DNA of 64,000 bases. Source: Boswellia sacra. Lineage: Eukaryota; Streptophyta; Magnoliopsida; Sapindales; Burseraceae. Of this stretch, positions 12,871 to 57,345 are shown one piece after another (the first letter of the stretch is position 1; the number at the start of each line of letters is the position of its first letter). Where the stretch lies: NCBI GenBank assembly GCA_013180625.2, contig SNVD02010212.1:310001-374000 (forward strand). Reading direction: 5' to 3'. A program made the translations under genes and the position numbers. The notes below the pieces were generated by a model, which saw only the letters and a program-made list of their open reading frames with translations, was not told the origin of the DNA and searched no databases.

Positions 12871-13338
12871 GCTTTAAAAAGCTTTGTTTTAAGAATTTTA
12901 TTTTGACATTTGAACTAAAGAAATGTGAGTTGTGTGTTCTTTTGATGATCATTGATAAAATCATGATACCATTGGAAATATATTTCTAGCAATGCATGTG
13001 ATAAGTGTCTATTTATATATCATTTTCATATCAATTCGTCCATGTTTCTTTGCTATATTCCTTGGTATTTTTATTTTTTGTGTGGTTTTGATGTTTGTAG
13101 GAGTTTTGGAGCAACTTGCACAAAAATGGAGTAAAACCCTTCATTTTCACCTCTACTAGTCAACCATCTTCTCGGATTTAATTGTATTGATATACAATGA
13201 ACCGGATAACATGCTATATACCATTGAAAAGCTCTCGAAGTCTATTTTCTGGAGAAATTACGGTTCACGAATTTATGTAGTGTACCGAAAGTTGTGATAA
13301 AAATGGTATGAGAAGTGTATATTTGTAATTCCATATAT

Positions 13339-13399
13339 CACTGTAGCATGTTATTAAATAAGGGGCACTGTAGCAAGTTACTGTAGCAGAGTATTTAAA
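13339..13399 (+). promoter_or_regulatory. Candidate LTR core promoter: ACTGTAGCA repeats and TATA box
   Basis: Three copies of ACTGTAGCA (13340, 13367 and 13380) precede a TATA-like box TATTTAAA at 13392-13399. The same layout occurs in the 3' LTR (TATTTAAA at 24700-24707) and in the solo LTR, where the box is a better TATATAAA (45395-45402). Transcription would then start near 13425, placing the hairpin group in the R/U5 leader. The start site is inferred. Confidence 0.6.
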
Positions 13400-13995
13400 C
13401 ACATTTTAGGGTTTTATTTTCATAACTTGAAGAGGGGAAAACGTGGGAGGAGGCTGCATTTCTGGATTTCTCTCATCCTTGGAGTTCTTGAAGGAGAAAG
13501 AAGATTTTGAAAGAGGAGGAACTACAATTCCAAGAAGATTCATCTACAAAGAAGATTTTCAAAGAATTTGCTAAGTTCTTTCTTTCCTTTTCAGTTCTGG
13601 AATTTCTCTGTATTGTATTTGTTATTCTGATTGAATATGTGTAACTAAATCTGAATTGGTTGAGGGTGATTTCAAAGCCTTTGATATGGATTTTGTGAGT
13701 TGATTGTGTAAGAAATTGTTATCCGATTCTCTAATTGAAGTTGCTTGTATTTTCCCATATCTAATGCTCATGATTGCTTACTGATTGTATTTGGAATGGC
13801 CAACTGAATATAATCTGTTGTTGTCTATTGCTAGATTAGAAATCTTGATCCGTAATTGTCATGAATTTCCAATCATGAGTAGCAAAATTGTGATCAGAGA
13901 TTGCAATTGGAAAATACAACCTAGGTTAAATAATCCGAACTTGTGTGATTAGTGCTTAGATCAACCTATCTTTCTCATCGTAATGCTTCTATTGA

Positions 13996-14122
13996 ATTAA
14001 ACTTAGAGAGCTTGTTCTAGGTTGTTTAATGGATAGAGATTAAATAAAGAGCTTGTTTTATTTAACCACAAAGTAAGGAAAGATTGGGATAACAGAGCTT
14101 GTTGTTATCTACGGTTGATAAC
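13996..14122 (+). promoter_or_regulatory. Three consecutive hairpins with the same loop GAGCTTGT
   Basis: Hairpin 1 (13996-14030) has arms ATTAAACTTAGA and TCTAGG-TTG-TTTAAT. Hairpin 2 (14040-14065) has arms TTAAATAAA and TTTATTTAA. Hairpin 3 (14088-14109) has arms GATAACA and TGTTATC. All present the identical loop GAGCTTGT, although the stems differ. A downstream GATAAC (14117-14122) could compete for the arm GTTATC of hairpin 3. The group is also present in the 3' LTR (25305-25431) and the solo LTR (45990-46116). Confidence 0.7.
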
Positions 14123-14297
14123 TTCAATGCTGTAATTGGATTACAATTCTATGTTAATTCACAAATTCATATATTGTGTCAGAGAAAGAACTCTTAACCA
14201 AGTGTCTCTTATTGATTTTTCACTCTATTGATAACTTTTAGCTTTGTGGTATCTTGATTTGCTTTCGTATTAAGTGGCGTTAATCAATCAAACAAAA

Positions 14298-14313
14298 CCC
14301 CCCCCCCCCCCCC

Positions 14314-14376
<63 letters not shown>

Positions 14377-14413
14377 ACCCCCCCCCCCCCCCCCCCCCCC
14401 CCCACCCTCCCCC
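14298..14413 (+). repeat. 116-bp poly-C tract in the 5' LTR
   Basis: Nearly pure C with single interruptions at 14314, 14377, 14404 (A) and 14408 (T). The 3' LTR has six C at the equivalent place and the solo LTR seven, so this is a local expansion or an assembly artefact. Confidence 0.95.
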
Positions 14414-14541
14414 ATTGACTCTGTTTTTGCTTTCGAATAACAAATTTAAGTAGAATCAATCCTCGTGGGAATGATATCTTACTCATCACTTTATTACTTG
14501 TGCGACTAGTATACTTGCTAGTTTCGAACGCATCAAGTTTT

Positions 14542-14559
14542 TGGCGCCGTTGCAGGGGA
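14542..14559 (+). promoter_or_regulatory. Primer binding site, tRNA-Asp type
   Basis: TGGCGCCGTTGCAGGGGA matches the 3' end of plant tRNA-Asp at all but one position (A in place of C at 14554), six bases after the LTR. Use of tRNA-Asp is characteristic of Athila elements. Reverse transcription of the element RNA starts here. Confidence 0.9.
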
Positions 14560-14641
14560 CTGATTTTCTAATCAATTTGTTATTCTGTTTTTACTACTGA
14601 TTCTTGATTGTTATTTCCTTATTGTTTGTGTTTAGGCTTTT

Positions 14642-16380
14642 ATGTCCAGGGAGAAGCGGATCAACGACTTAAGAGAATTAAGGAGTTTCTCCAATCCTCG
14701 AATTTAAGGCTAAATCGGTCAATTTCAACTCCACCCCCAGAATTTGACCTTGCACGACATACCTTCCCTCCCATCTTCCTGCCAGTTCAATCAAACTGAA
14801 TCGGAAGTAATGGCGATGGAAAACGATCAGACTCTTAAGGAGTTAGCGGCTCCAATTATTGATAAACAACCGCTATGCATAAGCACCAATTTTGAGATAG
14901 ATTTTGAACTTAAATCTGGAATGATTCATCTCTTACCTACATTTCATGGTTTTACAGGAGAGGATCCGAACAAACACCTCAAAGAATTTCATGTGGTATG
15001 CTCAAGTATGAAGCCAACCGGTGTTTCTGAAGAGCAAATTAAATTGAGAGCCTTCCCATTCTCATTAGCAGATTCGGCAAAAGATTGGCTATACTATCTA
15101 CCACTAGGTACCATTACCACTTGGAATGAGATGAGTAAACTCTTTTTGGAGAAATACTTTCAAGCCTCGAAAGTTACAAATATTAGAAAAGATATTAGTG
15201 GCATTCGACAACATAATGGAGAATCACTTCATGAATATTGGGAGAGATTTAAAAGGTTATGTGCTAGCTGTCCAAACCACCAAATTAGTGATGGACTCCT
15301 AAGTCAATATTTCTATGAGGGTCTCTTACCAATGGAAAGGAGTATCATTGATGCTGCTAGTGGTGGAGCACTAGTTAATAAAACACCGAACGTTGCAAGG
15401 CGTTTGATTAGTGACATGGCAGCGAACTCCCAACAATTCAGCAATCAATTTGAGCCACAACTACCAAAAAGAGTAATTGAGGTAAGTACTTCAAATATTG
15501 AACATCAACTTTGTGAACTTACCTCTCTTGTAAAAAAATGGCTGTAGGACATATGCAGCAATCTTATGCATGTGGAGTATGTTCTGCCATGGACCATCCA
15601 ACCGACATGTGTCCAACTTTGCTAGAAGGAGATACAGAACAAGCCAATGCCATGGGTGGATTTCCAGGAAAACCAAGGCAAAGGTATGACCCTTTCTCCA
15701 ATACTTACAATGCTGGATGGAGAGATCACCCTAATTAAAGATATGCGAATCGTCAACCAATTGCCCCAAATGCCATACCAAATCGACCACCAGGTTTCAA
15801 TCAAACAAGGGTGCAGCAACCATTACAAGCACAACCACAACCAGCACCACAACCAGCTCCACAAAATTCAGGTATGTCTCTCCAGGATATTGTTAAAGCA
15901 CTTGCCACTAAAACAATGCAATTTCAGCAGGAAACTAGGGCAAGTATCCAAAACCTGGAAAATCAAATGGGACAATTGGCCACTAACATGAGCAAAATTG
16001 AGAGTCAAAGCTCAGGAAAATTACCTTCTCAGCCGGTGATCAATCCAAGAGAGAATGCTAGTGCTGTAACTTTGAGAAGTGGGAAACAATTAGATATTCC
16101 ACCAAAGAAATCACAAATTGATGAAGGGGATGATACCACTTCTACCATGAACAAAACATCCACTTCTAAGATAAATCCTAAAATTTCCATTCATTCATAT
16201 GTTACCCCTCCACCATTTCCCAGCAGATTTGCAAAATCAAGGAAGGAGGAACAAGAACAAGAAATCCTGGAAACTTTTCGCAAGATCGAGGTAAACATAC
16301 CACTTCTGGATGCTATCAAGCAAGTGCCTCGTTATGCATAATTTCTCAAAAGAGTTATGCACCAATAAGAGGAAGTTGAA
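14642..16380 (+). pseudogene. Athila gag
   Basis: Gag builds the virus-like particle. Frame 14642 opens MSREKRINDLRELRSF, with stops at 14705 and soon after. The same frame is open from about 14744, with a first ATG at 14810 (MAMENDQT), to 15547. It contains the Gag core LLPTFHGFTGEDP, HLKEFHVVC, FPFSLADSAKDWLYYLP and EYWERFKRLC. After a frameshift, 15538-15738 carries a zinc knuckle C-GV-C-SAMD-H-PTDM-C. An in-frame TAA at 15736 and another at 16339 break the tail, which is proline/glutamine-rich (QAQPQPAPQPAPQ) and ends in the usual PPPFPSRFAK and LLDAIKQVPRYA blocks. Confidence 0.93.
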
Positions 16381-16381
16381 A

Positions 16382-17179
16382 GGAAATGAGAAGGTAAGTG
16401 TGGGGGAAAATGTTTCAGCTGTATTGCAAAGAAAAATTCCTCCGAAATGAAAAGATCCAGGTACGTTCACCATTCCATGCACTATTGGTAATACCAAGTT
16501 TGAAAGAGCTATGTTAGATTTAGGAGCATCTATTAATGTCATGCCATATTCTATTTATGCTTCTTTGAATCTTGGACCTCTTGCGAAAACTGGTATTGTA
16601 ATTCAAATTGCTGATCGTTCTAATGCATATCCCAAGGGAGTTGTAGAAGATGTGCTTGTGCAGGTGAATCAATTGGTATTTCCAGCAGACTTTTATGTTC
16701 TTGAAATGGAGGATGAGACATCTCCCAATCCAACACCGATTCTTTTTGGGAGACCATTCTTGAAAACTGCCCGAACTAAGATTGATGTTCATGATGGCAC
16801 TCTTACCATGGAATTTGATGGCGAGGTGATTCATTTCAATATTTTTGAGGCAATGAGGTACCCTAGTGACTTGCATTCTGTTTTTGCAGTGGATGTTATC
16901 GATTCTTTGGCACAACAACTTTTTGAGTTAACTCGCAAGGATGCATTGGAAGTAGCCATTAGTGAGCACATAGGGGCAGAAAATTCCAGAGAATCGAGGA
17001 AGTTGATACAAGTGTCTAAAGAAGTGGAGGAAGCTGTGGCAAGCTTGGATGAGACTATAGCTATCACCACAAATAGGTATGATGTTTCGTACATTGAATT
17101 GCCTTTATCTAATGAGAAACTTTTTCCTTCTGTGATGAAAGCCCTGCCTTGGAGCTTAAGCCTCTTCCAGATCATTTGA
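16382..17179 (+). pseudogene. Athila aspartic protease
   Basis: The open part, 16511-17179, starts MLDLGASINVMPYS, the Athila form of the retropepsin active site, with DLG where other groups have DSG or DTG. The flap region and ILFGRPFLKTARTKIDV follow. Upstream of 16511 the homology continues through a stop and a frameshift (16340-16450). Downstream an acidic linker (SYIELPLSNEKLFPSV) leads to RT, with a frameshift near 17150. The enzyme would process the polyprotein. Confidence 0.9.
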
Positions 17180-18300
17180 AACATGTATTCTTGGGTGAGA
17201 AGGATACTTTGCCAGTCATAATAGCCAAGGGCCTTACACCATTACAAGAAGAGAAACTCATCCGAGTGCTTCGAGATCACAAAACAGCCATTGGGTGGAC
17301 AATTGCTGACATCAAAGGTATTAGCCCAGCCATATGCATGCACCGTATCTTATTAGAAGAAGGATCCAAGCCCACTCGAGAAGCACAGCGGAGGTTGAAT
17401 CCTCCAATGATGGAAGTTGTCAAGAAAGAAATCCTGAAATTGTTAGATGTGGGTGTGATTTATCCAATTTCGGACAGCAAGTGGGTGAGTCAGTCCAAGT
17501 TGTTCCGAAGAAATCTGGTGTTACGGTGGTTAAGAATGACAATAATGAGCTAGTTCCCACTCGTATCCAAACTGGCTGGCGAGTTTGTATTGATTATCGG
17601 AAGCTAACTACAGTAACTCGCAAGGATCACTTTCCTTTGCCATTCATTGATCAAATGCTGGAGAGATTAGCAGGTCATTCTCATTATTGTTTTCTTGATG
17701 GCTATTCAGGATATAATCAGATTGTCATTGCCCCTGAGGATCAAGAGAAAACTACATTCACATGCCCATTCGGTACATTTGCCTATCGACGCATGCCATT
17801 CGGTCTTTGCAATGCCCCTGCCACTTTCCAAAGGTGTATGGTAAGTATTTTCTCTGATTATGTTGAGAACATTATTGAGGTATTTATGGATGACTTTAGT
17901 GTTTTTGGTGATTCTTTTGATAAATGCCTTGACAACCTTACCCTTATACTTCAAAGATGTATAGAAACTAACCTTGTTCTGAATTGGGAGAAATGTCATT
18001 TTATGGTAGATCAGGGTATAGTTTTGGGACATGTTATTTCTGCTAAGGGTATAGAGGTTGATAAATCCAAGATAGATCTTATATGTTCCTTACCACCTCC
18101 CACAAGTGTGCGGGATATTCGTTCGTTTCTTGGTCATGCAGGTTTTTATCGTAGATTCATCAAAGATTTCTCGAAGATAGCATTGCCCCTATGCAGATTA
18201 TTACAGAATGATGTGGCCTTTGAATTTGATGAGAAATGCAAAGAGGCATTTGAGAAACTGAAGGAACTATTGACTTCGGCTCCAGTAACCAATCTCCGAA
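17149..18300 (+). pseudogene. Athila reverse transcriptase
   Basis: The N-terminal part is in frame 17149 (LKPLPDHLKHVFLGEKDTLPVI, EVVKKEILKLLDVGVIYPI). After a shift near 17490 the rest is in frame 17334: WRVCIDYRKLT, FPLPFIDQMLERLAG, GYSGYNQI and MPFGLCNAPATFQRCM. The catalytic box FMDD lies at 17883-17894, then GHVISAKGIEVD and SFLGHAGFYRRFIKDFSKIA. All catalytic blocks survive, but the frame is broken at both ends. The enzyme copies the element RNA to DNA. Confidence 0.95.
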
Positions 18301-18675
18301 TTGGAATCATCCATTCGAGATCATGTGTGATGCAAGTGACTACGCTGTGGGTGCCGTTTTGGGTCAACGAATTGGCAGAATTCCACATGCCATTAACTAT
18401 GCATCTCGAACTTTAAATGATGCTCAGCTTAATTATTCTACCACTGAGAAAGAGCTGCTAGCGGTTATTTTTGCTTTAGAAAAGTTTCGATCTTATTTGA
18501 TTGGTACTAAAGTAACCGTTTATTCTGATCATACAGCTTTGAGGTACTTGCTCACAAAGAAAGATGCAAAACCAAGGCTTATCAGGTGGATACTCCTTTT
18601 ACAGGAATTTGACTTGGAGATCAAAGATAGGAAGGGAAGTGAAAACTTAGTTGCAGACCATCTTAGTCGCATTGT
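18301..18675 (+). pseudogene. Athila RNase H
   Basis: A frameshift near 18285-18323 moves the reading frame to 18323-19645. The block [15 protein letters not shown] holds the first catalytic aspartate, [17 protein letters not shown] the glutamate and [12 protein letters not shown] the second aspartate; LVADHLSRI marks the end. These residues are all kept. It degrades the RNA template after RT. Confidence 0.93.
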
Positions 18676-20060
18676 CCATGACGAGGATGTACTGCCATTA
18701 CAAGAAAGTTTTCCGGATGAACAATTACTGTCTCTACATGTAGCAGCCCCTTGGGATGCAGATATTGTTAATTACTTAGTTACCAAGAAGCTACCACATG
18801 ACTTGACTCGAGCTCAAAGAGACAAGATCAAAAACATTGCCAAATATTACATATGGGATGATCCATACTTATGGAAGCATTGTTCTGATCAAGTAATAAG
18901 AAGGTGTGTTTTTGAATCTGAATTTAATTCAATTTTGACCTTCTGTCATTCTTATGCATGTGGCGGTCACTTCGGACCAAAAAGAACAGCCCTGAAAGTT
19001 CTTGATTGTGGATTCTACTGGCCATCATTGTTCAAAGATGCATATCTATTTTGCAAAGCTTGTGAACGTTGTCAAAGGACAGGTAATTTAAGTGCCAAAA
19101 ATCAAATGCCACAAACCCCTATACTTGTTGTTGAGATTTTTGATGTGTGGGGTATTGATTTCATGGGTCCTTTTCCTTCATCTTTTGGTAATGTTTACAT
19201 TATACTTGCTGTGGATTATGTTTCTAAATGGGTGGAAGCAAAAGCTACAAGAACTAATGAATCTAAAGTTGTTGTAGATTTTGTGAAATCTAACATTTTT
19301 GCGAGATTTGGAACACCAAGAGCCATGATTATTGACAGAGGGACATACTTCTGCAACAAATCATTTGAAGCCTTGCTCAAGAAATACAACATCACTCACA
19401 AGGTGTCTACTGCATATCATCCACAAACTAGTGGTCAAGTTGAAGTTTCAAATCGGGAAGTCAAGTCCATTCTCGAGAAGACAGTGAATACGAGTAGAAA
19501 AGATTGGAGCCTACGATTGAATGATGCACTTTGGGCCTACCGAACTGCTTACAAGACACCTATTGGGATGTCTCCGTATAGGTTAGTCTATGGTAAGCCA
19601 TGTCACCTTCCAGTAGAGCTCGAACACAAAGATGGTGGGCAGTAAAGCTTTGTAACATGGAGATGGATGCTGCTGGAGAACAAAGGAAGCTTCAACTGCA
19701 AGACTTGGAAGTACTTAGAAATGATGCCTATGAGAATTCCAGAATTTACAAGAGGAAAAAACTAAGCATTTCACCCCCCCCCCCCCTTGATTAAAATGAT
19801 CTCCAGGAAGAATTTTGAGTGGACAGAAAGTTCTGTTATTCATTCTCGCCTCAAGTTATTTCCAGGTATTACGATCTCGGGATGGGTTGGCCCTTTGTTA
19901 GTACTACTGTTTTTCCTCATGGTGCAGTGGAAATCAAGAGCTTAAAACGGACAAAGTGTTCAAGGTGAATGGGCACAGGTTGAAGCCTTACTATGAGAAT
20001 TTAGTGATGCAGGACATCGATGAGGTACCTCTCTACGAGCCAACTTATCTTGATGGGTGA
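18676..20060 (+). pseudogene. Athila integrase
   Basis: The HHCC zinc domain is visible ([18 protein letters not shown] ... [11 protein letters not shown]). The DDE core follows: D in [11 protein letters not shown] in [13 protein letters not shown] and E in [12 protein letters not shown]. The frame stays open to 19645, ends in [19 protein letters not shown], and shifts to 19600-19794 (LQDLEVLRNDAYENSRIYK). A 13-base poly-C run at 19774-19786 and more shifts ruin the C-terminal part, traceable to about 20060 (VNGHRLKPYYENL). No chromodomain is seen, as expected for Athila. Confidence 0.93.
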
Positions 20061-20122
20061 GGACAGATAACGTCAGGCTGAGGACGTTAAACAAGCGCTT
20101 ATTGGGAGGCAACCCAATGTTT
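20061..20122 (+). promoter_or_regulatory. Conserved post-integrase Athila motif with a small hairpin
   Basis: GACGTTAAACAAGCGCT followed by ATTGGGAGGCAACCCAAT (20099-20116). The latter can form a six-pair stem (ATTGGG/CCCAAT) with loop AGGCAA. I know this phrase from Athila elements of other plants; its role is not established. Confidence 0.6.
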
Positions 20123-20521
20123 TTGAAATATAAATAAAAAGAGACAAAGAAAAGAATGTAGTTTTGATCAATTTTTGTGTTTCGAGGAGATTCCTCTCAT
20201 GGGCTATTATAATTGATCAGGTTTTATCTCTCTTTGCCATCTGTCTCATTTGCCTTGTTGTTTGTTTTTGACTTTCGTTTGCTCTTATGTTTTTATTTCT
20301 TTTATGTGTCTCTATTTTCTTTTCTTTTCTTTTTTGTGTTTATTTGATTATTCCGTGCTTGTGCTTGCTTGTGTGTTTGCTTCGAGTGCAGTTGTGCAAC
20401 AGCTTGAGGAAACATTCAAACGGGAGTTGAAGCCATTGTTCGAAGGTTTGAAACGTGCATATCTGGGAGAAGAACAAACTTAATCGCATTATCGGTAATA
20501 TCTCTCCTTTTCTTCTCTTCA
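20123..20521 (+). other. Spacer between pol and the virus-like ORF
   Basis: T-rich noncoding sequence. A frame open from a TTG at 20250 gives a hydrophobic stretch but has no ATG and no recognisable domain, so no gene is called. Confidence 0.5.
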
Positions 20522-21040
20522 ATGGATGCTGATATCTTTCTATCGAACCTTCGTAAATATTTCCCTTCACTTCCTCAAAATGCTGTGTTTAAAAATTATA
20601 AAGTACGGATGACTAGACTTTGGGCATTGATGCTCCTAAATGTGCCTGCTGATATCCGATGGCTTATCGAAGCCAAGGTGAGATTGTCCGGTAAGTCGGA
20701 CATTAATCTCGTAAAATACATGCCTGGTCTAGGAAAGAGCTACTACGCCAAGAGGCGAAGAGCGAAAAGGTTACAAGTATGTTATAAATGTGCTAGATGG
20801 AATTGTAACCAGACTTGTCGTTCATTAGGTTTTGCGTCCAGGAATAGAGAAGATAAACTTTCATTTATTAAGAATGGTTTGAGTAATGAGTCGCTGGATA
20901 ATGTTTTGTTAACTCTCGAGTCACATTCTTGTGGACTTGTTCAGCGTGAATTGCTTAATCTATGGACACAATTTCGTGATGAATTGCAGTGTTATAGTCT
21001 AGGGAATCTGACTAAAAACGACCCTGTTTGCCAGTTATAA
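20522..21040 (+). CDS. Intact 172-codon ORF with a basic stretch and Cys4 motif; resembles plant RNA-virus nucleic-acid-binding protein
   Basis: It opens with ATG at 20522 and is uninterrupted to the stop at 21040, unlike every other reading frame of the element. Residues 31-52 are helical and hydrophobic (ALMLLNVPADIRWLI). Residues 71-84 are GKSYYAKRRRAKRL, followed by Cys at 87, 90, 95 and 99 (C-x2-C-x4-C-x3-C), a possible zinc finger. A hydrophobic helix, then G-x-S-x-[YF]-A-[KR]-RRRA, then a Cys cluster is the pattern of the nucleic-acid-binding proteins of Betaflexiviridae (carla- and vitivirus-like). Several of these bind RNA and suppress silencing. That family link is motif recall, not a search. 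It could instead be a diverged Athila env-region ORF. It lies 0.65 kb before the LOG copy on the same strand. Confidence 0.6.
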   Translation: MDADIFLSNLRKYFPSLPQNAVFKNYKVRMTRLWALMLLNVPADIRWLIEAKVRLSGKSDINLVKYMPGLGKSYYAKRRRAKRLQVCYKCARWNCNQTCRSLGFASRNREDKLSFIKNGLSNESLDNVLLTLESHSCGLVQRELLNLWTQFRDELQCYSLGNLTKNDPVCQL

Positions 21041-21299
21041 GAAAACTGGATGGGAAGCAAATCCCCGACTCATAGAAGGCGTTTCAGCCGTTACTGGACG
21101 TAAAACCAGAGGAAGATGTGAGCCACAATCACAAGTACTTGTATATTTGAATGTGTGTTGTTGTCGTAGAATTTTTTTCTTGTTTCGTTTGATCTGATTA
21201 TCAATGTTGTTTTTGTGTTGTTGTTGTTTGTTGATTTTGTTAGTTTTAATTTCAAGTTTTCTTTTTGACAAACCATATGACTACCCTATGGCATAAGTA
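21041..21299 (+). other. Spacer, nothing recognised
   Basis: T-rich noncoding sequence between the virus-like ORF and the 67-bp repeat array; it contains GTTGTTGTTTG-type runs. Confidence 0.5.
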
Positions 21300-21500
21300 C
21301 ACGTGGGAGACAAGTGTGGGGGTTTTGTCAACCCCCGCCGAAAGTGTATCTCCATTTTCCATGCTACACGTGGGAGACAAGTGTGGGGGTTTTGTCAACC
21401 CCCGCCGAAAGTGTATCTCCATTTTCCATGCTTCACGTGGGAGACAAGTGTGTAGGTTTTGTCAAACCTCACCGAAAGCATATCTTATTTTTTTCAAATT
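21300..21500 (+). repeat. 67-bp tandem repeat, three units, each with a hairpin
   Basis: Units begin CACGTGGGAGACAAGTGTG at 21300, 21367 and 21434. The first two are almost identical; the third is diverged. Each contains a stem-loop: in unit 1, GTGGGGGTT pairs with AACCCCCGC around TTGTC (21316-21338). Unit 3 reads AGGTTT-TGTC-AAACCT, so both arms have changed while pairing is kept. A fourth, decayed half unit (CAACCCCCACCGAAA) lies near 21525. The array lies between the virus-like ORF and LOG. Confidence 0.9.
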
Positions 21501-21691
21501 TTGGGGCGATAAATCTGCATCGAGCAACCCCCACCGAAATTATGTCCCCATGTGTCAAATTTGAGAGTTTTACTTGTGTATATATCCATTTTGCATATTC
21601 TCAAATGTCATTTTATAACTTGTCTTGCACTTGAATCGCATAATACCTAACGTACATCATTGTCTTGCACAAGTTTAAAGCACTTTTAGAA

Positions 21692-22341
21692 ATGGAGAAA
21701 ACACCAATTCGGCGATTCCAAAATATATGCGTATTTTGTGGATCGCAATTGGGTAAAGATGGAGAGTTTACAACAGCAGCTCTTGATCTTGGTAGGACAT
21801 TAGCTGCGAGGGGCATTCATTTGATTTATGGAGGGGGTAGTCTTGGGTTAATGGGGTGTGTGTCGACAACTGCATCCTTAGGAGGAAGCAAAGTTCTCGG
21901 CATTATCCCTAAACCATTAGCTGTACGAGATATCGTAGGCAACACCATGGGAGACGAGTTACAGGTTTCTAGTATGCATGAGCGTATTGCACATATGGTC
22001 ATTAAATCTGATGCATTTATAGCTTTGCCCGGTGGTTATGGTACATTAGAGGAGATATTTCAACTCACCTCTTGGGCACAGCTAAACATCCATCGGAAAC
22101 CCATTGGTTTGTTAAATGTCAATAATTTTTTTGATGGTTTGTTGTCTTTTCTTGATCAAGCAGTAGAAAAAAACTTCATCTCACAGTCAGCGAGGCAAAT
22201 CCTGGTTACAGCTTCAACTGCAGGGAGTTAATTGACAAATTACAAGAATTCGTCTATTCACCTGATTCAACAATGGCTCGGATAGATTGGTTTGGAGAAG
22301 GCAATAAGAGGCGTAAACTGGATTTAACGCTCCATCTGTAA
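21692..22341 (+). pseudogene. LOG-like: LONELY GUY-type cytokinin phosphoribohydrolase, intronless, one frameshift
   Basis: LOG enzymes release active cytokinin base from cytokinin riboside 5'-monophosphate in the cytosol. The ATG at 21692 (MEKTPIRRFQNICVFCGSQ) fits the family start. The frame then shows the Rossmann-like YGGGSLGLMG (46-55), IPKPL, MHERIAHM (95-102, with the conserved Arg) and the signature PGGYGTLEE (113-121), then SWAQL, KPIGLLNV and FLDQAVEKNFI. A one-base deletion near 22221-22225 makes a stop at 22229-22231. The neighbouring frame continues the homology for 38 codons (ELIDKLQEF ... RKLDLTLHL) to TAA at 22339-22341, giving about 216 residues, the normal LOG length. Plant LOG genes have several introns; this copy has none, so it came from cDNA. 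It sits inside an Athila element on the same strand. Confidence 0.92.
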
Positions 22342-23534
22342 TGTCTATCTGCTGGTTTGCTTCATTTTCGTTTGTTTTCTCTTTATTGTGTTTATTTGAG
22401 TTGAGTTTTTTTTTCAGGTTGTTTCTTTCATCCCAGGTAATATTTTCTAATCTCGTTTTTTAGAGTGGTGGCTTAAAAAGTTTAATTCCTCTTGAAACGC
22501 ATTCTGGATCTCTTCAATCCATAATGGCTGAATAAGGAGGCTAACTTCTAAACTTTTTAGACCCATTCTAACTAACTTGTTTTTGTTTGCTGACTTGTTG
22601 AACTTTGTTATTTTATGAGTGAGTTTAGTTTTGCGTAATTTAGAGTTGTTATGTGTTTTTATCTTTATCAGTTTCGATTCAAAAAAAACAATTGTGGAAA
22701 AACCTGATAATGGCAGAATATGGGGTTTTCTTAACTCTTGAAACGCATTCTCTCTCAATGAATCTGTAGTTTGTTTATTTCATGTTGTTTGAAGTGTCTT
22801 GTTTCTTGTTTTGTTCTTTCATAATAAAGGTATATAGGCTGGAAACCTTAAGTATGCGGGCTACTGGTCCTAAGGATTGTTGAAATATACAATCTTGACT
22901 CAGGTGTAACAACGCCACGTACCTCTTTTCTTGCATTTGTGGGTCGATGATAAGATAATGATTGAATTAAGAATAACTCTTGAAAAATGATAAATGATGC
23001 ATGGATCTGTGTGCTTGAAATGTTTATTGGTTTTCGCTTTGCTTTTGATTCCTTGCGCAACATTGAGCACTGAGCTATTATCACTGAGTTATTTGTTCAC
23101 TTAGAGAAAGTTATGTAATTTAAATGTTTCTTCAGATTTCAATGAATTCTAGAACTTGTTTGATGGTCACTCGAGGCGAAATCCTAGACTGTGCAACATT
23201 GGGGAAATGATTTAGGCAATCTTTGGACCGTTTGAGCCTTAATAGCCAACCTTGACTGAAATTGATCCCTAGTTACCCCTTTGAGCCTCTGTAAACCTTT
23301 TTCTTTGTTAACTCACTAAAAGATTTCCTAACCTCAAATGAATTTGTTCCAAAAAGTTTATCCCTTACCTATGAGCATGTAGATCATTCACAATTAAATT
23401 TTGAGCTATGTTCTGGTTTTGGGAAGTTAGCGGAGGTTGGGATGTGTCATGAGCAATGCAAGTGAGTTCTATTGTGTTTGTAAAAAGAAAAAAAAGAAAA
23501 AAAAAGCCAATCTGTACTTATCATCCACGTACTT

Positions 23535-23576
23535 ACACATTGAGGACAATGTGTTGTTTAAGTGTGGGGGAGGGGA
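23535..23576 (+). promoter_or_regulatory. Hairpin followed by a PPT-like purine tract
   Basis: ACACATTG-AGGA-CAATGTGT (23535-23554) is a perfect eight-pair stem with a four-base loop, followed by AAGTGTGGGGGAGGGGA at 23560-23576. The purine run resembles the true polypurine tract at 24293. Further relatives lie at 23691 (AAGTGTGGGG) and 23752 (AAGTTTGGGGG). Confidence 0.6.
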
Positions 23577-23580
23577 ACTG

Positions 23581-23651
23581 TAATAAAAAAAAGAAAAAAA
23601 AGAAAAAAAGAAAAAAAAAGAAAAAAAAGAACAAAAGAAGAAGAATAAGAG
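23581..23651 (+). repeat. A/G low-complexity tract
   Basis: Runs of AAAAAAGAAAAAAAG about 70 bp long. An A/G tract occurs at the same relative place in the Tat gag-only elements (29237-29345 and their minus-strand copies). Confidence 0.85.
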
Positions 23652-24292
23652 ATCTATACCCTTAATATTCTTAAAAAGAATGAAACAACAAAGTGTGGGG
23701 TTGTAGTTTTCTTTTGTTTCCTAAAAAAAAAAAAGATTGAGTGTTCTAAATAAGTTTGGGGGTGTAACCTGGTGAATTGAAATGAAGTTGTGTTATAGGG
23801 TTGAGCTCTACATAGTCTTGAATGATTTATGTGTTTGTGGGTGATTTGAGCCAAATTATTCTCCTTTATCATACCTTCACCCAAGCCAAACGTTACAAGC
23901 TTAATAAAGTCCTACTTGATCCTTGGTGTTGTGCATGTCTACATTAGTGGAGAGTGACTTGAAAAGCAGGCCTATGGAGTTCATTTATACACACATCTTC
24001 AATATTAAATATGATTCATTTTTATGCATAAACTCATCCGGGTTACAAGTGATTAGGTGAGAATGGCTCTACACACACACACTTGAGGAATTGAAATGAA
24101 GCGAAACTAATCTTTAAGATAAAATTCTTGATCAAGTGCATTATTTTGAAGTTTTCCTTGGGTTATAATTAAGTACAATCTTTGAGGCCTATTTGCAAGA
24201 TGAAGCATTTGTGTGTTTTGATTTTTTGTTGATTCTGTTTCGGTTTAGTTTTATTTCATATTGTCGTAGTTGCTCGAGGACTAGCAAAGTCT

Positions 24293-24307
24293 AAGTGTGG
24301 GGGAATT
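24293..24307 (+). promoter_or_regulatory. Polypurine tract before the Athila 3' LTR
   Basis: AAGTGTGGGGGAATT directly precedes the TG of the 3' LTR at 24308. In LTR retrotransposons the RNase H-resistant purine tract primes plus-strand DNA synthesis. Confidence 0.85.
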
Positions 24308-25732
24308 TGATAAGTGTCTATTTATATATCATTTTCATATCAATTCGTCCATGTTTCTTTGCTATATTCCTTGGTATTTTTATGTTTTTGTGTGGTTTTG
24401 ATGTTTGTAGGAGTTTTGGAGCAACTTGCACAAAAATGGAGTAAAACCCTTCATTTTCACCTCTGCTAGTCAACCATCTTCTCGGATTTAATTGTATTGA
24501 TATACAATGAACCCGATGACATATCATATACCGTTGAAAAGCTCTCGAAGTCTACTTTTTGGAGAAATTTACGGTTTATGAATCCATTCAGTGTACCGAA
24601 AGTTGTAATCAAAACAGTGTGTGAAGTGTAGAAATGTAATTCCACACATCACTGTAGCATGTATAATACGGGACACTGTAGCACGTTACTGTAGCAGAGT
24701 ATTTAAACACATTTTAGGGTTTTATTTTCATAACTTGAAGAGGGGAAAACGTGGGAGGAGGCTGCATTTCTGGATTTCTCTCATCCCTTGGAGTTCTTGA
24801 AGGAGAAAGTAGATTTTGAAAGAGGAGGAACTACAATTCCAAGAAGATTCATCTACAAAGAAGATTTTCAAAGAATTTGCTAAGTTCTTTCTTTCCTTTT
24901 CAATTCTGGAATTTCTCTGTATTGTATTTGTTATTCTGATTGAATATGTGTAACTAAATCTGAATTGGTTGAGGGTGATTTCAAAGCCCTTGATATGGAT
25001 TTTGTGAGTTGATTGTGTAAGAAATTGTTATCCAATTCTCTAATTGAAGTTGCTTGTATTTTCCCATATCTAATGCTTATGATTGCTTACTGATTGTATT
25101 TGGAATAGCCAACTGAATATAATCTGTTGTTGTCTATTACTAGATTAGAAATCTTGATCCGTAATTGTCATGAATTTCCAATCATTAGTAGCAAAATTGT
25201 GATCAGAGATTGCAATTGGAAAATACAACCTAGGTTAAATAATCCGAACTTGTGTGATTATTGCTTAGATCAACCTATCTTTCTCATCGTAATGCTTCTA
25301 TTGAATTAAACTTAGAGAGCTTGTTCTAGGTTGTTTAATGGATAGAGATTAAATAAAGAGCTTGTTTTATTTAACAACAAAGTAAGGAAAGATTGGGATA
25401 ACAGAGCTTGTTGTTATCTACGGTTGATAACTTCAATGCTGTAATTGGATTACAATTCTATGTTAATTCACAAATTCATATCTTGTGGCAGAGAAAGAAC
25501 CCTTAACCAAGTGTCTCTCATTGAATTTTCAATTCATTTAATATTGTGTTGTGTTATTCTTTATTTGCCTTCGTATTCAGTTTAATTAATCATTCAACAA
25601 AACCCCCCATATTTAGTTTATTGTTGCTGAAAAATAACAAATTTAATTAGAATCAATCCTCGTGGGAACGATATCTCACTCATCACTTTATTACTTGTGC
25701 GACTAGTATACTTGCTAGTTTCGAACGCATCA
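24308..25732 (+). repeat. 3' LTR of the Athila element
   Basis: 1425 bp, TGATAAGTG to CGCATCA. It contains the same TATA box (24700-24707) and hairpin group (25305-25431) as the 5' LTR. Long stretches (about 24710-25490) are nearly identical to the 5' LTR, but 24500-24690 and 25500-25640 are clearly different; the latter agrees with the solo LTR at 45001. The following base pairs belong to a Tat leader, not to a duplicate of the left flank. Confidence 0.95.
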
Positions 25733-28680: not shown

Positions 28681-30634
28681 GAAATGCTTGTTTTTAAGAA
28701 TGTTATGTTTGTGAGTTATGTGTTCTTTCGATGATCATTGTTAAAATCATGATACTCATTGGAAATAGATTTTTGGTAATACATGAGAATGTGTTGTTTA
28801 CATGCTTGACTCTTTTTACAAGTTGAGTTTCATTCTTGATTTCTTCAACATTTGAGCACAATAGCCACGAATATGGAATTTTATATCACTTAGAGAAACC
28901 TTTACGTGAATAAAGCTTGGTGTTGAGATCTCATAGGACTTTAGAACCTATTTGATCACCACTCGGGGTAAAATCCTAGGCTTTACAACATGAGGGAAGT
29001 GATTTAGGCCTTCTTCCGATCTATTGAGCCTTTCAAGCCCACCTGCATAAATGTCATTGTCCTTAGTATACCTATTGAGCCTAATCAAGCCTTTTCTTTG
29101 TCAAACCATAAAAGTTATCCTAACACTGAAAGATTTTCCTACATAATACCCTTCACTCATAGCATTCCAGAAAAGAGCATTGAGAGCCATGCTTATGGGA
29201 GAATGAAAGGAAGTTGACAAGTTTTTGTGCAATTTTGAGCTCGAAGAAGAAGGAAAAGAAAATAAAAGAAGGGAAAAAGAAACAAAGAAAAAGAGAAAGA
29301 GAAATAGGAAAGGAAAAAAGAAGAAAAAATAAAGAAAACAAAAAGAATAGTGCTAATCTCAGTGCTTATAATGTTTAGGGGCCACTCAAAATCAAAAGCA
29401 AAGCAAACGTGGTGGACAAAGACTTCAAAGTTTAGGGGTGTAACCATTCAAAATTGAAATAGAAGTGAACATTGTGATTAAGATAACCTGGTGCTCTCAA
29501 TTAAAACTTAGAATGATTGTCTGACTATGACTGAGATAACTTTATAGTTTCCTTTATCATACCTTGACCCTAGCCCACCATTACAAGCTTGATAAAGCCC
29601 TAATGATCATTGACGTTATGATCAGCCTACATTAGTGGAGAGTGGTGTGAAAATAGGCTTATGGTAGTCCTTTTATCTTTAGAGATTGATCACTAGTTTC
29701 TATTTGCATAAAGCTATTAGAGTCTTAACAAGTGAAGTATGATTGGCTATACTCACACATACAAAGAAACTTGAATGAAGCAATTCTTGCATTAGAATCA
29801 AAATTGTGAACAATCACGATGTCAATGCATTACCTTTGAGCTATTGAATTTGAGAAATCTTTGAAGAATTCAAATGTGAATCAAATTGATGCACAACTAA
29901 CATTTAGCATTCCAAGTTATTGTTAGAGGATATTAGATGCGTTGAAAACATGTTAAGAAGAAGAAAATTTGCCAGCAGTTCCCATCAATGTTATAAAGAA
30001 GGGAACATTGGCATCAACAGTAAAGAAGTAAGATATATAGAATAAGTTAGCCATTTCGTCTAGCATGCATGTCTACAAAGAAGGAGGAATAATGCCCTTA
30101 AAGCTAAATGAAAAAATTTCACAAGACAATACTAAACTTTTCATACGGAGGGCAAACAATTGCCCATTCATCTTGAGAAGTGAAAAGAAGCAAAAGGCAA
30201 AGAATTTCCAAATCATCTTGAGAAAGAAAAGAAGGGGCCAAGAATTGCCCATTCATCTTGAGAACACAAAAGAAAGAGGGGCAAAGAATTGCCCTAACCA
30301 TTTTGAAAATCATGGTAGATAGAATTGTCTCAATCATCTTGAAAGAAGCGTAAGAAATGGTGCTTGAAATAGGTAGATTGACTATTCGCTAGAGGATTGT
30401 TTTGAGCATTTGAAGATTCATTGCATGAGTTTGTAGTAGCAAAATTCTCCCCCTGCGCATTGCTAAGTCATCCTCAATATCCTCTCATAAGAAGAACAAG
30501 CTGGCCTAGAGTCTGTACACACACTCAATGATCGCCTAGCCCAAGAATAGAGCATGCATACATGAAGCATAAATCCTTTTCTTGCAAGAAGCATAAACCA
30601 AAATGAAGCAAAGTCCAGAAGTGACCGTTTGTAT
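28681..30634 (+). other. Tat 3' noncoding module
   Basis: No coding content. It contains a CACTCGGGGTAAAATCCTAGG...GATTTAGGC block (28961-29010), an A/G tract (29237-29345), a TTTATCATACCTTGACCC...AGTGGAGAGTG block (29551-29644) and three to four copies of a CAAAGAATTGCCC / CATCTTGAGAA phrase (30140-30350). Reverse-strand equivalents are at 47300-49200 and 54700-56400. The end is truncated where the LTR fragment starts. Confidence 0.7.
29237..29345 (+). repeat. A/G low-complexity tract
   Basis: Runs of GAAAAAG and GGAAAAG units, equivalent to the pyrimidine-rich tracts at 48550-48615 and 55690-55800 on the plus strand of the reversed copies. Confidence 0.85.
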
Positions 30635-45000: not shown

Positions 45001-46418
45001 TGATAGGTGTCTATTTATGTATTACTTTCATATCAATTTGTCCATGTTTCTTTGCTATATTCCTTGGTATTTTTATGTTTTTGTGTGGTTTGATGTTTGT
45101 AGGAGTTTTGGAGCAACTTGCACAAAAATGGAGTAAAACCCTTCATTTTCACCTCTGCTAATTAGCCAATTTCTCGGAGTTGATTGTATCGATATACAAT
45201 TAACCGGATAACATGCTATATACCATTGAAAAGCTCTCGAAGTCTATTTTCTGGAGAAATTTACGGTTCACGAATTTATTTAGTGTACCAAAAGTTGTGA
45301 TAAAAATGGTATCAGAAGTGTATATTTGTAATTCCATATATCACTGTAGCATGTTATTAAATACGGGGCACTGTAGCAAGTTACTGTAGTAGAGTATATA
45401 AACATATTTTAGGGTTTTATTTTGATAACTTGAAGAGGGGGAAACGACTTGGAGGCTGCAGCTCTGGAATTCTCTCATCTTTTGGAGTTCTTAAAGGAGA
45501 AAGAAAGCTTGGAAAGAGGAAGAACTACAAATCTAAAGAGATTTGCAAATGATTTGCTAAGTTTCTTCATTTCCCTTTCATTTTCTGGAATGTTTTTGTA
45601 TTGTATTGTATTGACTACGTTTTTGAACATGTGTAACTGAATCTGAATTGGTTGAGGGTGATTTCAAAGCCCTTGATATGGGTTTTGTGAGTTGATTGTG
45701 TAAGAAGTTGTTATCCAATTCTCTAATTGAAGTTGCTTGTATTTTCCCATATCTAATGCTTATGATTGCTTGCTGATTGTATTTGGGGTGGCCAACTGAA
45801 TATAATATGGTTGTTGTCTATTGCTAGATTAGAAATCTTGATCCGTAATTGTCTTAAATTTCTAATCATTAGTAGCAAAAATTGTGATCAGAGATTGCAA
45901 TTGGAGAATATAACCTAAGTTAAATAATCCGAGCTTGTGTGTTTATTGCTTAGATCAACCTATCTTTCTTTTCGTAATGCATCCATTGAATTAAACTCAG
46001 AGAGCTTGTTCTAGGTTGTTTAATGGATAGAGATTAAATAAAGAGCTTGTTTTATTTAACAACAAAGTAAGGAAAGATTGGGATAACAGAGCTTGTTGTT
46101 ATCTACGGGTGATAACTTCAATGCTGTAATTGGATTACAATTCTATGTTAATTCACAAATTCATATCTTGTGGCAGAGAATAAACCCTTAACCAGGTGCC
46201 TCTCATTGATTTTTCAATTCATTTAATCTTGTGTTGTGTTATTCTTTATTTGCCTTCGTATTCAGTTTAATTAATCATTCAACAAAACCCCCCCTTATTT
46301 AGTTTATTGTTGTTGGAAAATAACAAATTCAATTAGAATCAATCCTCGTGGGAACGATATCTTACTTATCACTTTATTACTTGTGCGACTAGTATACTTG
46401 CTAGTTTCGAACGCATCA
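45001..46418 (+). mobile_element. Athila solo LTR
   Basis: 1418 bp, starts TGATAGGTGTC and ends CGCATCA, and aligns with the Athila LTRs at 12999 and 24308. Perfect 5-bp duplicates TTTAG flank it (44996-45000 and 46419-46423). No internal sequence remains, so the element was reduced by LTR-LTR recombination. It holds TATATAAA (45395-45402) and the hairpin group (45990-46116). It is inserted in the 3' region of the outer Tat element. Confidence 0.97.
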
Positions 46419-56408: not shown

Positions 56409-57345
56409 TTATGCATCCTCACTGTCTGATACATTAAATTGGTCATATTGCTCATGATTTTTGTTGTTGCTTCTCCTCTGCCTGGCCTCCAAATCTTCTA
56501 TTTGGATGCTCGAATAATACAAGTCTTCAAAGGTTTTGATTGGAAACCCCGTTAGTCTATCACTGATGTAGGCATAGGCCCTATTGATCACCATAAGGAT
56601 TTGGTCTTTGTTCGCAGGCCTCGTTGTCATCTTTGTGGTTTTGGCCCTCCAACGAACTAGATATTCTGAGAAAGTGTTGTTGGACTTTTGATGTGTCATC
56701 TCCAAATCCCTCAAAGTTACCCCCAGTTGAGTGTTGTAGTGATATCGTTCTATAAAGTGTTTTGATAGCTCTTCCCAATCTTCTCGAACTCCTTTAGGAA
56801 GATCTTGATACCACACTACTACATCACCTTCTAAAGGTAGCATGAAATACTTCAAGATATATTCCTTCGTCAAAGGAGTGGTGGCCATGACAGCTGCATA
56901 CTACCTCAAATGTCTTTGAATTGCCTTCTCCATTGAACTTGGGCAAGTTTGGCTAACAAAACTTTGGTGGTAAATTGCTATCTCTAATGAGTAAGATGTC
57001 ATCTAGGTCTTTGACCCCTTCCAACCCCTTCTTATTCAAGAGAGATTAGACCTTTTCTATGTCCTTGGTCAACTACCTAACCTATTTGAGTTCTTCCAGA
57101 TTGATTGGGCTTTTTCCCCTATTTCGACCTTGGCTATTCTCACCATAACTATCTCTATTACCTCGAATGGCGGTTGATTCATGCGGTTAGGCCAATTTGG
57201 AGTGCTTCAATAAGTTGAGCCATTTGCTGTTGGAGCGTGGTGATGTTAGCCCTCATTTGAGCCATTTCAGCATTGTTATTGGGTGATTCCATTTTGTCTT
57301 CTTGTTTTATCAAACCACCACCTCGTCTAACCCAAGCAATGATGG
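56409..57345 (-). pseudogene. Gag of the inner element, C-terminally shortened
   Basis: The longest clean frame, 56409-56888, gives 159 residues: MATTPLTKEYILKYFMLPLEG, DVVVWYQDLPKGVREDWEEL, DLEMTHQKSNNTFSEYLVRW and GFPIKTFEDLYYSSIQIEDLE. It starts inside the domain; upstream coding sequence reaches the acceptor-like TTGCAG at 57346-57351 with interruptions. After SDSEDA the frame stops. The nucleocapsid-like segment C-x2-H-x5-H-x4-C present in other copies is absent because the sequence jumps to the last gag codons. Gag alone could have formed particles. Confidence 0.88.

Follow-up and report, generated by a model that had tools for sequence, protein, structure and literature searches.

How does a reading frame for a cytokinin-activating enzyme of the LOG type come to lie inside a plant retrotransposon, and what has become of the protein there? 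Such a frame is found in a 64,000-nucleotide stretch of Boswellia sacra DNA, here called the window. The reading that we favour, with a probability of about 0.5, is that the frame belongs to an old accessory cassette. Its LOG would have turned into a protein that acts in the nucleus, binds co-repressors and has changed or given up its hormone chemistry, a function that we infer from the features set out below.

The frame lies within an LTR-flanked element made up of the following parts:

12999-25732, plus strand: whole element, an LTR-flanked gag-pol with frames for a nucleic-acid-binding protein (NABP) and LOG, all in sense
12999..14535, plus strand: 5' LTR (TG...CA), pairing with the 3' LTR
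14542..14553, plus strand: putative primer binding site TGGCGCCGTTGC, directly 3' of the 5' LTR, which may be of the tRNA-Asp type
14714..16338, plus strand: gag region (PF03732, E 1.1e-19), with a frame change at about 15517-15544 and a stop at 15736
16451..17176, plus strand: aspartic protease region (PF13650, E 3.9e-05)
17325..18413, plus strand: reverse transcriptase region (PF00078, E 3.9e-28)
18254..19642, plus strand: RNase H and integrase region (PF17917, E 6e-37; PF00665, E 7.5e-16; PF17921, E 1.8e-10)
24295..24307, plus strand: putative polypurine tract, abutting the 3' LTR
24308..25732, plus strand: 3' LTR

Between the LTRs, gag, protease, reverse transcriptase (RT), RNase H and integrase follow one another in the order of Athila elements. 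Within the OTA superclade of plant Ty3/gypsy elements, a second, archaeal-type RNase H marks Tat and is absent from Athila, as stated in the available part of PMC6317226. No Pfam match to this second domain was obtained at E 0.001 in the frames 16451-17176, 17325-18413 and 18254-19642, which points to Athila rather than Tat. The sequence from 12999 to 25732 is thus assigned to an Athila-type element, an assignment to which domain order and the RNase H criterion point, rather than an RT tree.

The two LTRs (12996-14303 against 24305-25608) are 94.4% identical over 1312 columns, with a K2P divergence of 0.060 over 1422 sites. This value was left unconverted to years because the full element is bounded by different sequences (GCATG before, CTAAA after) that form no common target duplication, and its LTRs may stem from different insertions. 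The surrounding repeat contains matches to both flanks, in parts that do not adjoin. The family is also represented by a solo LTR at 45001-46418, about 0.10 in K2P from the element's LTRs. It is bounded on either side by TTTAG, a perfect 5-bp target duplication, and this lends support to the called LTR ends.

Several features of the surroundings were also recorded. The 5' LTR contains a 116-base C tract (14298-14413), matched in the 3' LTR by a short C run only, that may be an artefact of assembly or sequencing. Round the element, at 25737-63836, older repeats form a nest of many diverged blocks (about 67-85% identity, in both orientations). A gag-like frame of another retroelement occupies 56409-56900 on the minus strand (PF03732, E 4.6e-06), and a search of the 64-kb window against Rfam gave nothing at the gathering score.

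Downstream of the integrase and upstream of the 3' LTR, on the same strand as gag, protease, RT, RNase H and integrase, the LOG gene is found in two parts:

21692..22231, plus strand: LOG-type frame of 179 codons counted from the ATG; the base-binding Lys is replaced by Ile, and PGGYGTLEE is intact
22219..22341, plus strand: C-terminal part of LOG in a shifted frame, through the stop (tblastn with protein P0002, 25/41 identical)

The open frame of the first part spans 21644-22231, with the ATG at 21692. It matches Pfam PF03641 at E 3.4e-36 and the Arabidopsis protein At2g37210 (PDB 2a33) at E 4.2e-61, and its best database relative gave E 8e-81, with 76% identity over 99%. When P0002 (217 residues) was used as a tblastn query, residues 1-217 were covered in two blocks separated by one frame change near 22219, with the alignment reaching the stop at 22339-22341; no intron was seen across these residues. 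The earlier note had described an intronless LOG frame with a single late frameshift, lying in sense between integrase and 3' LTR, and all of this was borne out by the PF03641 match, the P0002 blocks, the Pfam matches of the neighbouring domains and the LTR alignment. Cellular plant LOG genes normally have several introns. The lack of introns in the window LOG indicates that the frame is probably mRNA-derived.

The earlier reading of the element missed a virus-type second gene, as it did the EAR-type tail of LOG described below. This gene and a repeat lie between the integrase and LOG:

20522..21040, plus strand: NABP, a carlavirus-type nucleic-acid-binding protein frame (MDADIF...; CxxCx4Cx3C cluster)
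21298..21485, plus strand: tandem repeat between NABP and LOG, 2.8 copies of a 67-bp unit with 93% matches

The NABP frame changes near its end, and the remainder continues in another frame to about 21069. The window protein passes the curated cut-offs of two viral profiles, PF05515 (Viral_NABP; E 1.2e-11, 45.5 bits against 23) and PF01623 (Carla_C4; E 9.3e-06, 26 bits against 20.9), matching parts of each (111-224 of 227 and 36-65 of 91, respectively). At E 0.001 there were 205 database proteins that matched NABP; among the 24 relatives scanned, 23 carry PF05515 and 20 carry PF01623. Identity to P0122 was 70% over 80% of the query. No relative was found in a viral contig collection scanned with P0122, P0001 and A1, and a PDB search with the NABP profile gave no convincing match (best E 0.4). 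With a pLDDT of 58.2, the structure model of NABP has low confidence and was not good enough for a fold search. A putative descent of NABP from carlaviruses is suggested by the profile matches, which are its evidence.

To what extent NABP and LOG belong together can be seen in other plants. Single gene models containing both domains number 8 among the 120 NABP relatives listed of the 205: five from Orobanche gracilis and one each from O. minor, Rhamnella and Citrus. In Xanthoceras, the NABP protein P0161 and the LOG protein P0249 have consecutive locus tags and come from contigs of equal size, and in the Rhamnella protein P0196 the integrase C-terminus is joined to NABP. Among contigs of at least 2 kb, four sizes were common to the LOG list (26 entries) and the NABP list (34 entries), against 0.15 expected with 5% jitter. 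Shared contig sizes below 1300 (734, 905, 1018 and 1100) were discarded as too short for both full frames, and are due to chance or fragments.

These gene arrangements bear on whether LOG entered the site on its own, as a processed pseudogene or a real host LOG locus that happens to lie inside the element. The missing target duplication of the full element and its flanks, which match non-adjacent repeat parts, would agree with such a history. It is, however, opposed by the fused and adjacent NABP-LOG genes elsewhere, by the integrase joined to NABP in P0196 and by the nearest relatives of the window LOG, which are tailed members of the element-type clade described below, not host LOGs. In the repeat listings of the window, no separate target duplication was noticed round LOG. 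We rejected a separate insertion of LOG on the fused and adjacent genes of other plants, and regard it as highly improbable.

The two genes are nevertheless not always seen together. L001, a 3.3-kb plant-type contig, carries an integrase followed by NABP. The window LOG begins some 0.62 kb past NABP, so that a LOG would be expected inside L001; none was found in its remaining 0.98 kb, where the best of 202 LOG queries gave E 0.013 over 13 residues. Positions 3016-3099 of L001 align with 23205-23287 of the window, past LOG, although this is a weak anchor that also resembles 29024-29081. LOG may therefore be dispensable, and NABP and LOG look like separate additions to the element. The PF01623 score of the L001 NABP is 20.4 bits, just below the curated cut-off. 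Comparison of the window and L001 NABP genes gave an omega of 0.165 at a near-saturated dS of 1.7, with a bootstrap range of 0 to 0.28 in which saturated resamples were scored 0; for the integrase, dS was saturated. The plant-type retroelement DNA of L001 (194-2347, an open integrase part and NABP) sits in a record labelled as a Candidatus Nomurabacteria MAG and is a probable contamination of a public bacterial assembly.

To place the window LOG among its relatives, 202 proteins from two listings (120 listed each, of more than 7900) were pooled with two PDB references. Removal of rows under 170 aa and of six odd gene models left 194, from which 63 representatives below 88% identity were taken for tree building. 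In the first tree, 52 of the 63 representatives, including the window, form one clade (support 100/100, stem 0.85). In a second tree, built after masking the Lys region and all residues beyond 177, the same 52 of 62 fall on one side of a branch at 100/100, in a bootstrap that was not fully settled. The doubtful Lithospermum protein P0250 groups there with nine other, cellular rows. We call the clade element-type from the tree, element context having been seen for few of its members. Its named hosts include Populus, Xanthoceras, Acer, Reevesia, Diplodiscus, Parasponia and Melia; the fused gene models, which were kept out of the trees, add Citrus, Rhamnella and Orobanche. Full-length LOG relatives at about 60-76% identity to the window occur in plants of several families. 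For residue counts, membership was assigned to the 202 proteins and 2a33 by best masked BLAST hit, giving 137 rows inside the clade and 66 outside.

Three Populus proteins annotated as LOGL10 (P0032, P0050 and P0078) fall in the element-type clade, lack the Lys discussed below and carry an EAR-type tail. They are probably element genes misread as hormone enzymes, or else domesticated copies. That some clade members are LOGs domesticated from elements, now acting as host regulators, would accord with the annotation of these three, but annotation pipelines also name open frames of elements, and we see only a slim chance that this holds.

The age of the capture was also considered. The earlier note had argued that LOG is less damaged than gag-pol and so was captured more recently or held under selection. 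The gag-pol region (14714-19791) has six frame changes and one in-frame stop, about 1.4 per kb as read from the path of open frames rather than from an alignment to an intact relative, compared with one lesion in 0.65 kb for LOG and one in 0.55 kb for the NABP frame. Lesion densities are thus about equal, the age argument fails, and a recent capture judged by damage is rejected. Judging from its single clade, from named members in several rosid families and from fused gene models also in Orobanche, the capture of LOG is old. What stands of the earlier reading is that the LOG frame has no introns, probably comes from mRNA and is part of an Athila-type element; a recent capture peculiar to this copy does not stand.

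Both accessory genes of the window are broken, and an in-frame tail cannot be made from this copy. Accessory frames of LTR elements often have no known function, and it is conceivable that one element picked up a LOG mRNA whose copies then spread by drift as a passenger serving no purpose. The broken window copy would fit this, as would L001, in which NABP but no LOG was seen. Full-length LOG frames at the identities given above nevertheless persist in several plant families (in a protein search that finds open frames only), and the clade shares a new tail and a one-way residue change. On balance we consider drift without function quite unlikely.

The residue change concerns position 99, directly after the catalytic Arg98. 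Lysine occupies this position in 66/66 LOGs outside the clade, and the 137 clade rows have Ile (47), Leu (38), Met (30), Lys (21) or Asn (1), so that 115 are aliphatic (I/L/M). The remaining catalytic positions, all fixed in the 66 outside rows, are mostly retained in the clade (Arg98 in 129/137, Thr118 in 135/137 and Glu121 in 133/137). The window protein keeps R98, E121 and PGGxGTxxE, and has Ile where the type-I LOG criterion calls for Lys (K156 in CgLOG-II). Of the four LOG landmarks that the earlier note had listed as present, three are thus intact, and the fourth, MHERIAHM, contains this Ile. In Corynebacterium glutamicum LOG-II, replacement of the Arg, of the Lys (K156), of the Thr or of the Glu by Ala abolished activity, according to the accessible portion of PMC5379747.

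The conserved Arg, Thr and Glu speak against a simple loss of enzymatic function. An aliphatic residue at position 99 of an otherwise retained site suggests changed chemistry rather than decay, and the window LOG product has probably ceased to be an ordinary enzyme of cytokinin activation. Loss of catalytic residues is seen among the fused models. In Citrus P0218, PGGxGTLEE is broken to PGDLATLEA, with Ala for the catalytic Glu; the Arg is missing at its site in five of the six fused Orobanche models, with a gap in the sixth, and P0184 and P0192 are among those without it. The fused Rhamnella model P0200 keeps the catalytic Arg.

The same residues could be read as those of a working enzyme that raises free cytokinin and thereby the division of element-bearing cells and transmission of the element, the Lys change being tolerated and the tail serving as a localisation signal. 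The high retention of Arg98, Thr118 and Glu121, the 21 clade rows with Lys and a confidently predicted LOG fold would all suit an active protein. Against it stand the 115 of 137 rows with an aliphatic residue at a position where Ala abolished the activity of a bacterial type-II LOG, and the Citrus (P0218) and Orobanche (P0184, P0192) proteins that have lost a catalytic residue yet remain tailed. Retained cytokinin activation is, in our view, unlikely, if the foremost of the alternatives.

Rather than an intact hormone enzyme, our preferred reading of a remodelled, co-repressor-binding LOG draws on the C-terminus of the protein:

22318..22338, plus strand: EAR-type tail LDLTLHL (LxLxLxL), after the basic NKRRK, behind the frameshift

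An L.L.L end, with I, F, V or M allowed, is found in 97/119 clade rows of at least 200 aa and in 0/65 outside the clade; 92 of the 119 have a strict LxLxL end. The tail goes with the residue change: 95 of 102 clade rows without Lys are tailed, against 2 of 17 with Lys (P0039 and P0069), in counts of related rows and not of independent events. The remodelling is not universal in the clade, as 15 of the 17 Lys-keeping rows that reach 200 aa have no tail. The Lys-bearing rows, several of them from Xanthoceras and Acer, often end just short of it (SKRRRLD, SKKRRLA). In 38 tailed representatives, Asp occurs at -6 in 33 and Lys at -10 in 33, and the preceding linker varies; since these 38 of 39 (P0031 excluded) were picked by L.L.L, their fixed Leu residues are circular.

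The EAR motif is defined by LxLxL and DLNxxP, and the C-terminus of NIMIN1 reads LDLNLAL and the motif of ZCT1/2 LDLNLTP, in the text available of PMC9956375. The window tail region reads RRKLDLTLHL, and other examples are LDLNLYL in P0018 and IDLNLTP in P0030. In a structure model of P0002 the LOG fold is predicted with confidence (mean pLDDT 87.1), the nearest solved folds being At2g37210 (2a33, Foldseek E 8.2e-24) and At5g11950, and the tail residues 201-217 are poorly ordered at 55-60. Of the eight fused models, four have the L.L.L end (P0218 from Citrus; P0178, P0184 and P0192 from Orobanche) and four do not (P0200, P0207, P0215 and P0224); P0218, P0184 and P0192 thus keep the L.L.L end with a catalytic residue missing.

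Taken together, these observations are consistent with a model in which a now decayed Athila-type element carries a two-gene accessory cassette, NABP and LOG, downstream of its integrase. The product of the first gene would be a zinc-cluster protein, small and basic, of the type of the nucleic-acid-binding proteins of carlaviruses. The second gene would go back to a single ancient event in which a processed host LOG mRNA was captured, and would have been inherited within elements since then. In most of the clade, the base-contacting Lys would have given way to an aliphatic residue with the phosphoribose-binding loop and the catalytic Arg and Glu mostly kept, and a basic, NLS-like stretch and a C-terminal EAR motif would have been added. 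The two genes may be expressed, for example, from a spliced message, as env-like genes are. The LOG-derived protein would most likely enter the nucleus and recruit TOPLESS-type co-repressors by its tail. Its core would bind a nucleotide or act on a different one, in place of or in addition to the release of free cytokinin. On balance, host transcription in hormone or defence pathways would be shifted in the element's favour. We extend this model only tentatively, and with the balance somewhat against it, to a widespread host-manipulation module that pairs a virus-derived NABP with a hormone enzyme turned TOPLESS-recruiting nucleotide-binder, which would be the first known retroelement protein to use the EAR code.

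For most extra genes that plant LTR elements carry, no use is known; two can be traced here. For LOG the change of form leads from the host protein to one with a basic tail and, in most of the clade, with an EAR tail and without the Lys, and it yields clear predictions. If the tail binds TOPLESS, the plant co-repressor code would be used by retroelements as well as by pathogens and hormone regulators, and a way in which elements might blunt silencing or defence could be put to the test. Fixation of a virus-type protein in an LTR lineage would be a record of genes exchanged between RNA viruses and retroelements. Element genes that lack such activity may stand behind some of the LOGL10 and cytokinin riboside phosphoribohydrolase entries in databases.

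LOG genes in retroelements have precedents. Steinbauerova et al. in 2011 reportedly described a LOGL4-type extra ORF in Athila-like elements. A YgdH/LOG domain is present in Gypsy consensuses of Citrus and Populus, 'in line with' Steinbauerova 2011, in the part of PMC9289625 that was available; the claim that this class of capture is undescribed is thereby overturned. The likeness of those consensuses to the present element lies in the LOG-type domain, and both genera are among the relatives found here. The same portion of that account is without mention of an EAR tail, a Lys change or a virus-type neighbour. Among the open-licence PMC papers listed, nothing in the accessible text pointed to LTR elements with the Lys change, an EAR motif or a protein of the carlavirus type. 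The available part of PMC13317346, which reviews how plant elements capture genes, contains no lonely guy, cytokinin or Athila. Measured against that literature, the Lys change, the EAR-type tail and the carlavirus-type neighbour appear to be new here, and LOG in Athila-like and Gypsy elements was already known.

With plant type-I LOGs of the LOG3/LOG7 branch, the element-type proteins share the fold (2a33), PGGxGTxEE and the catalytic Arg and Glu. They differ in that most of the clade has I/L/M for Lys and a basic and L.L.L tail, and the window copy is intronless and inside an LTR element. The cysteine-rich nucleic-acid-binding proteins of carlaviruses (PF01623, PF05515) resemble NABP in the basic stretch beside a Cys cluster and in both profile cut-offs passed, whereas the window NABP lies in an LTR element, has relatives of about 182 aa and matches the profiles in part. 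In one study, a zinc-finger protein of a carlavirus reportedly acts as a transcription factor in plants. A parallel is offered by orchid Gypsy elements, in which an extra enzyme domain, an m6A demethylase of the ALKBH type, was fixed; the domain and hosts are other than here, and the orchid protein was tested in vitro (PMC9289625, as far as its text was available). With NIMIN1-like EAR proteins, finally, the clade shares a C-terminal LxLxLxL, but here the motif sits on a LOG fold in a retroelement, and co-repressor binding is predicted from this short motif.
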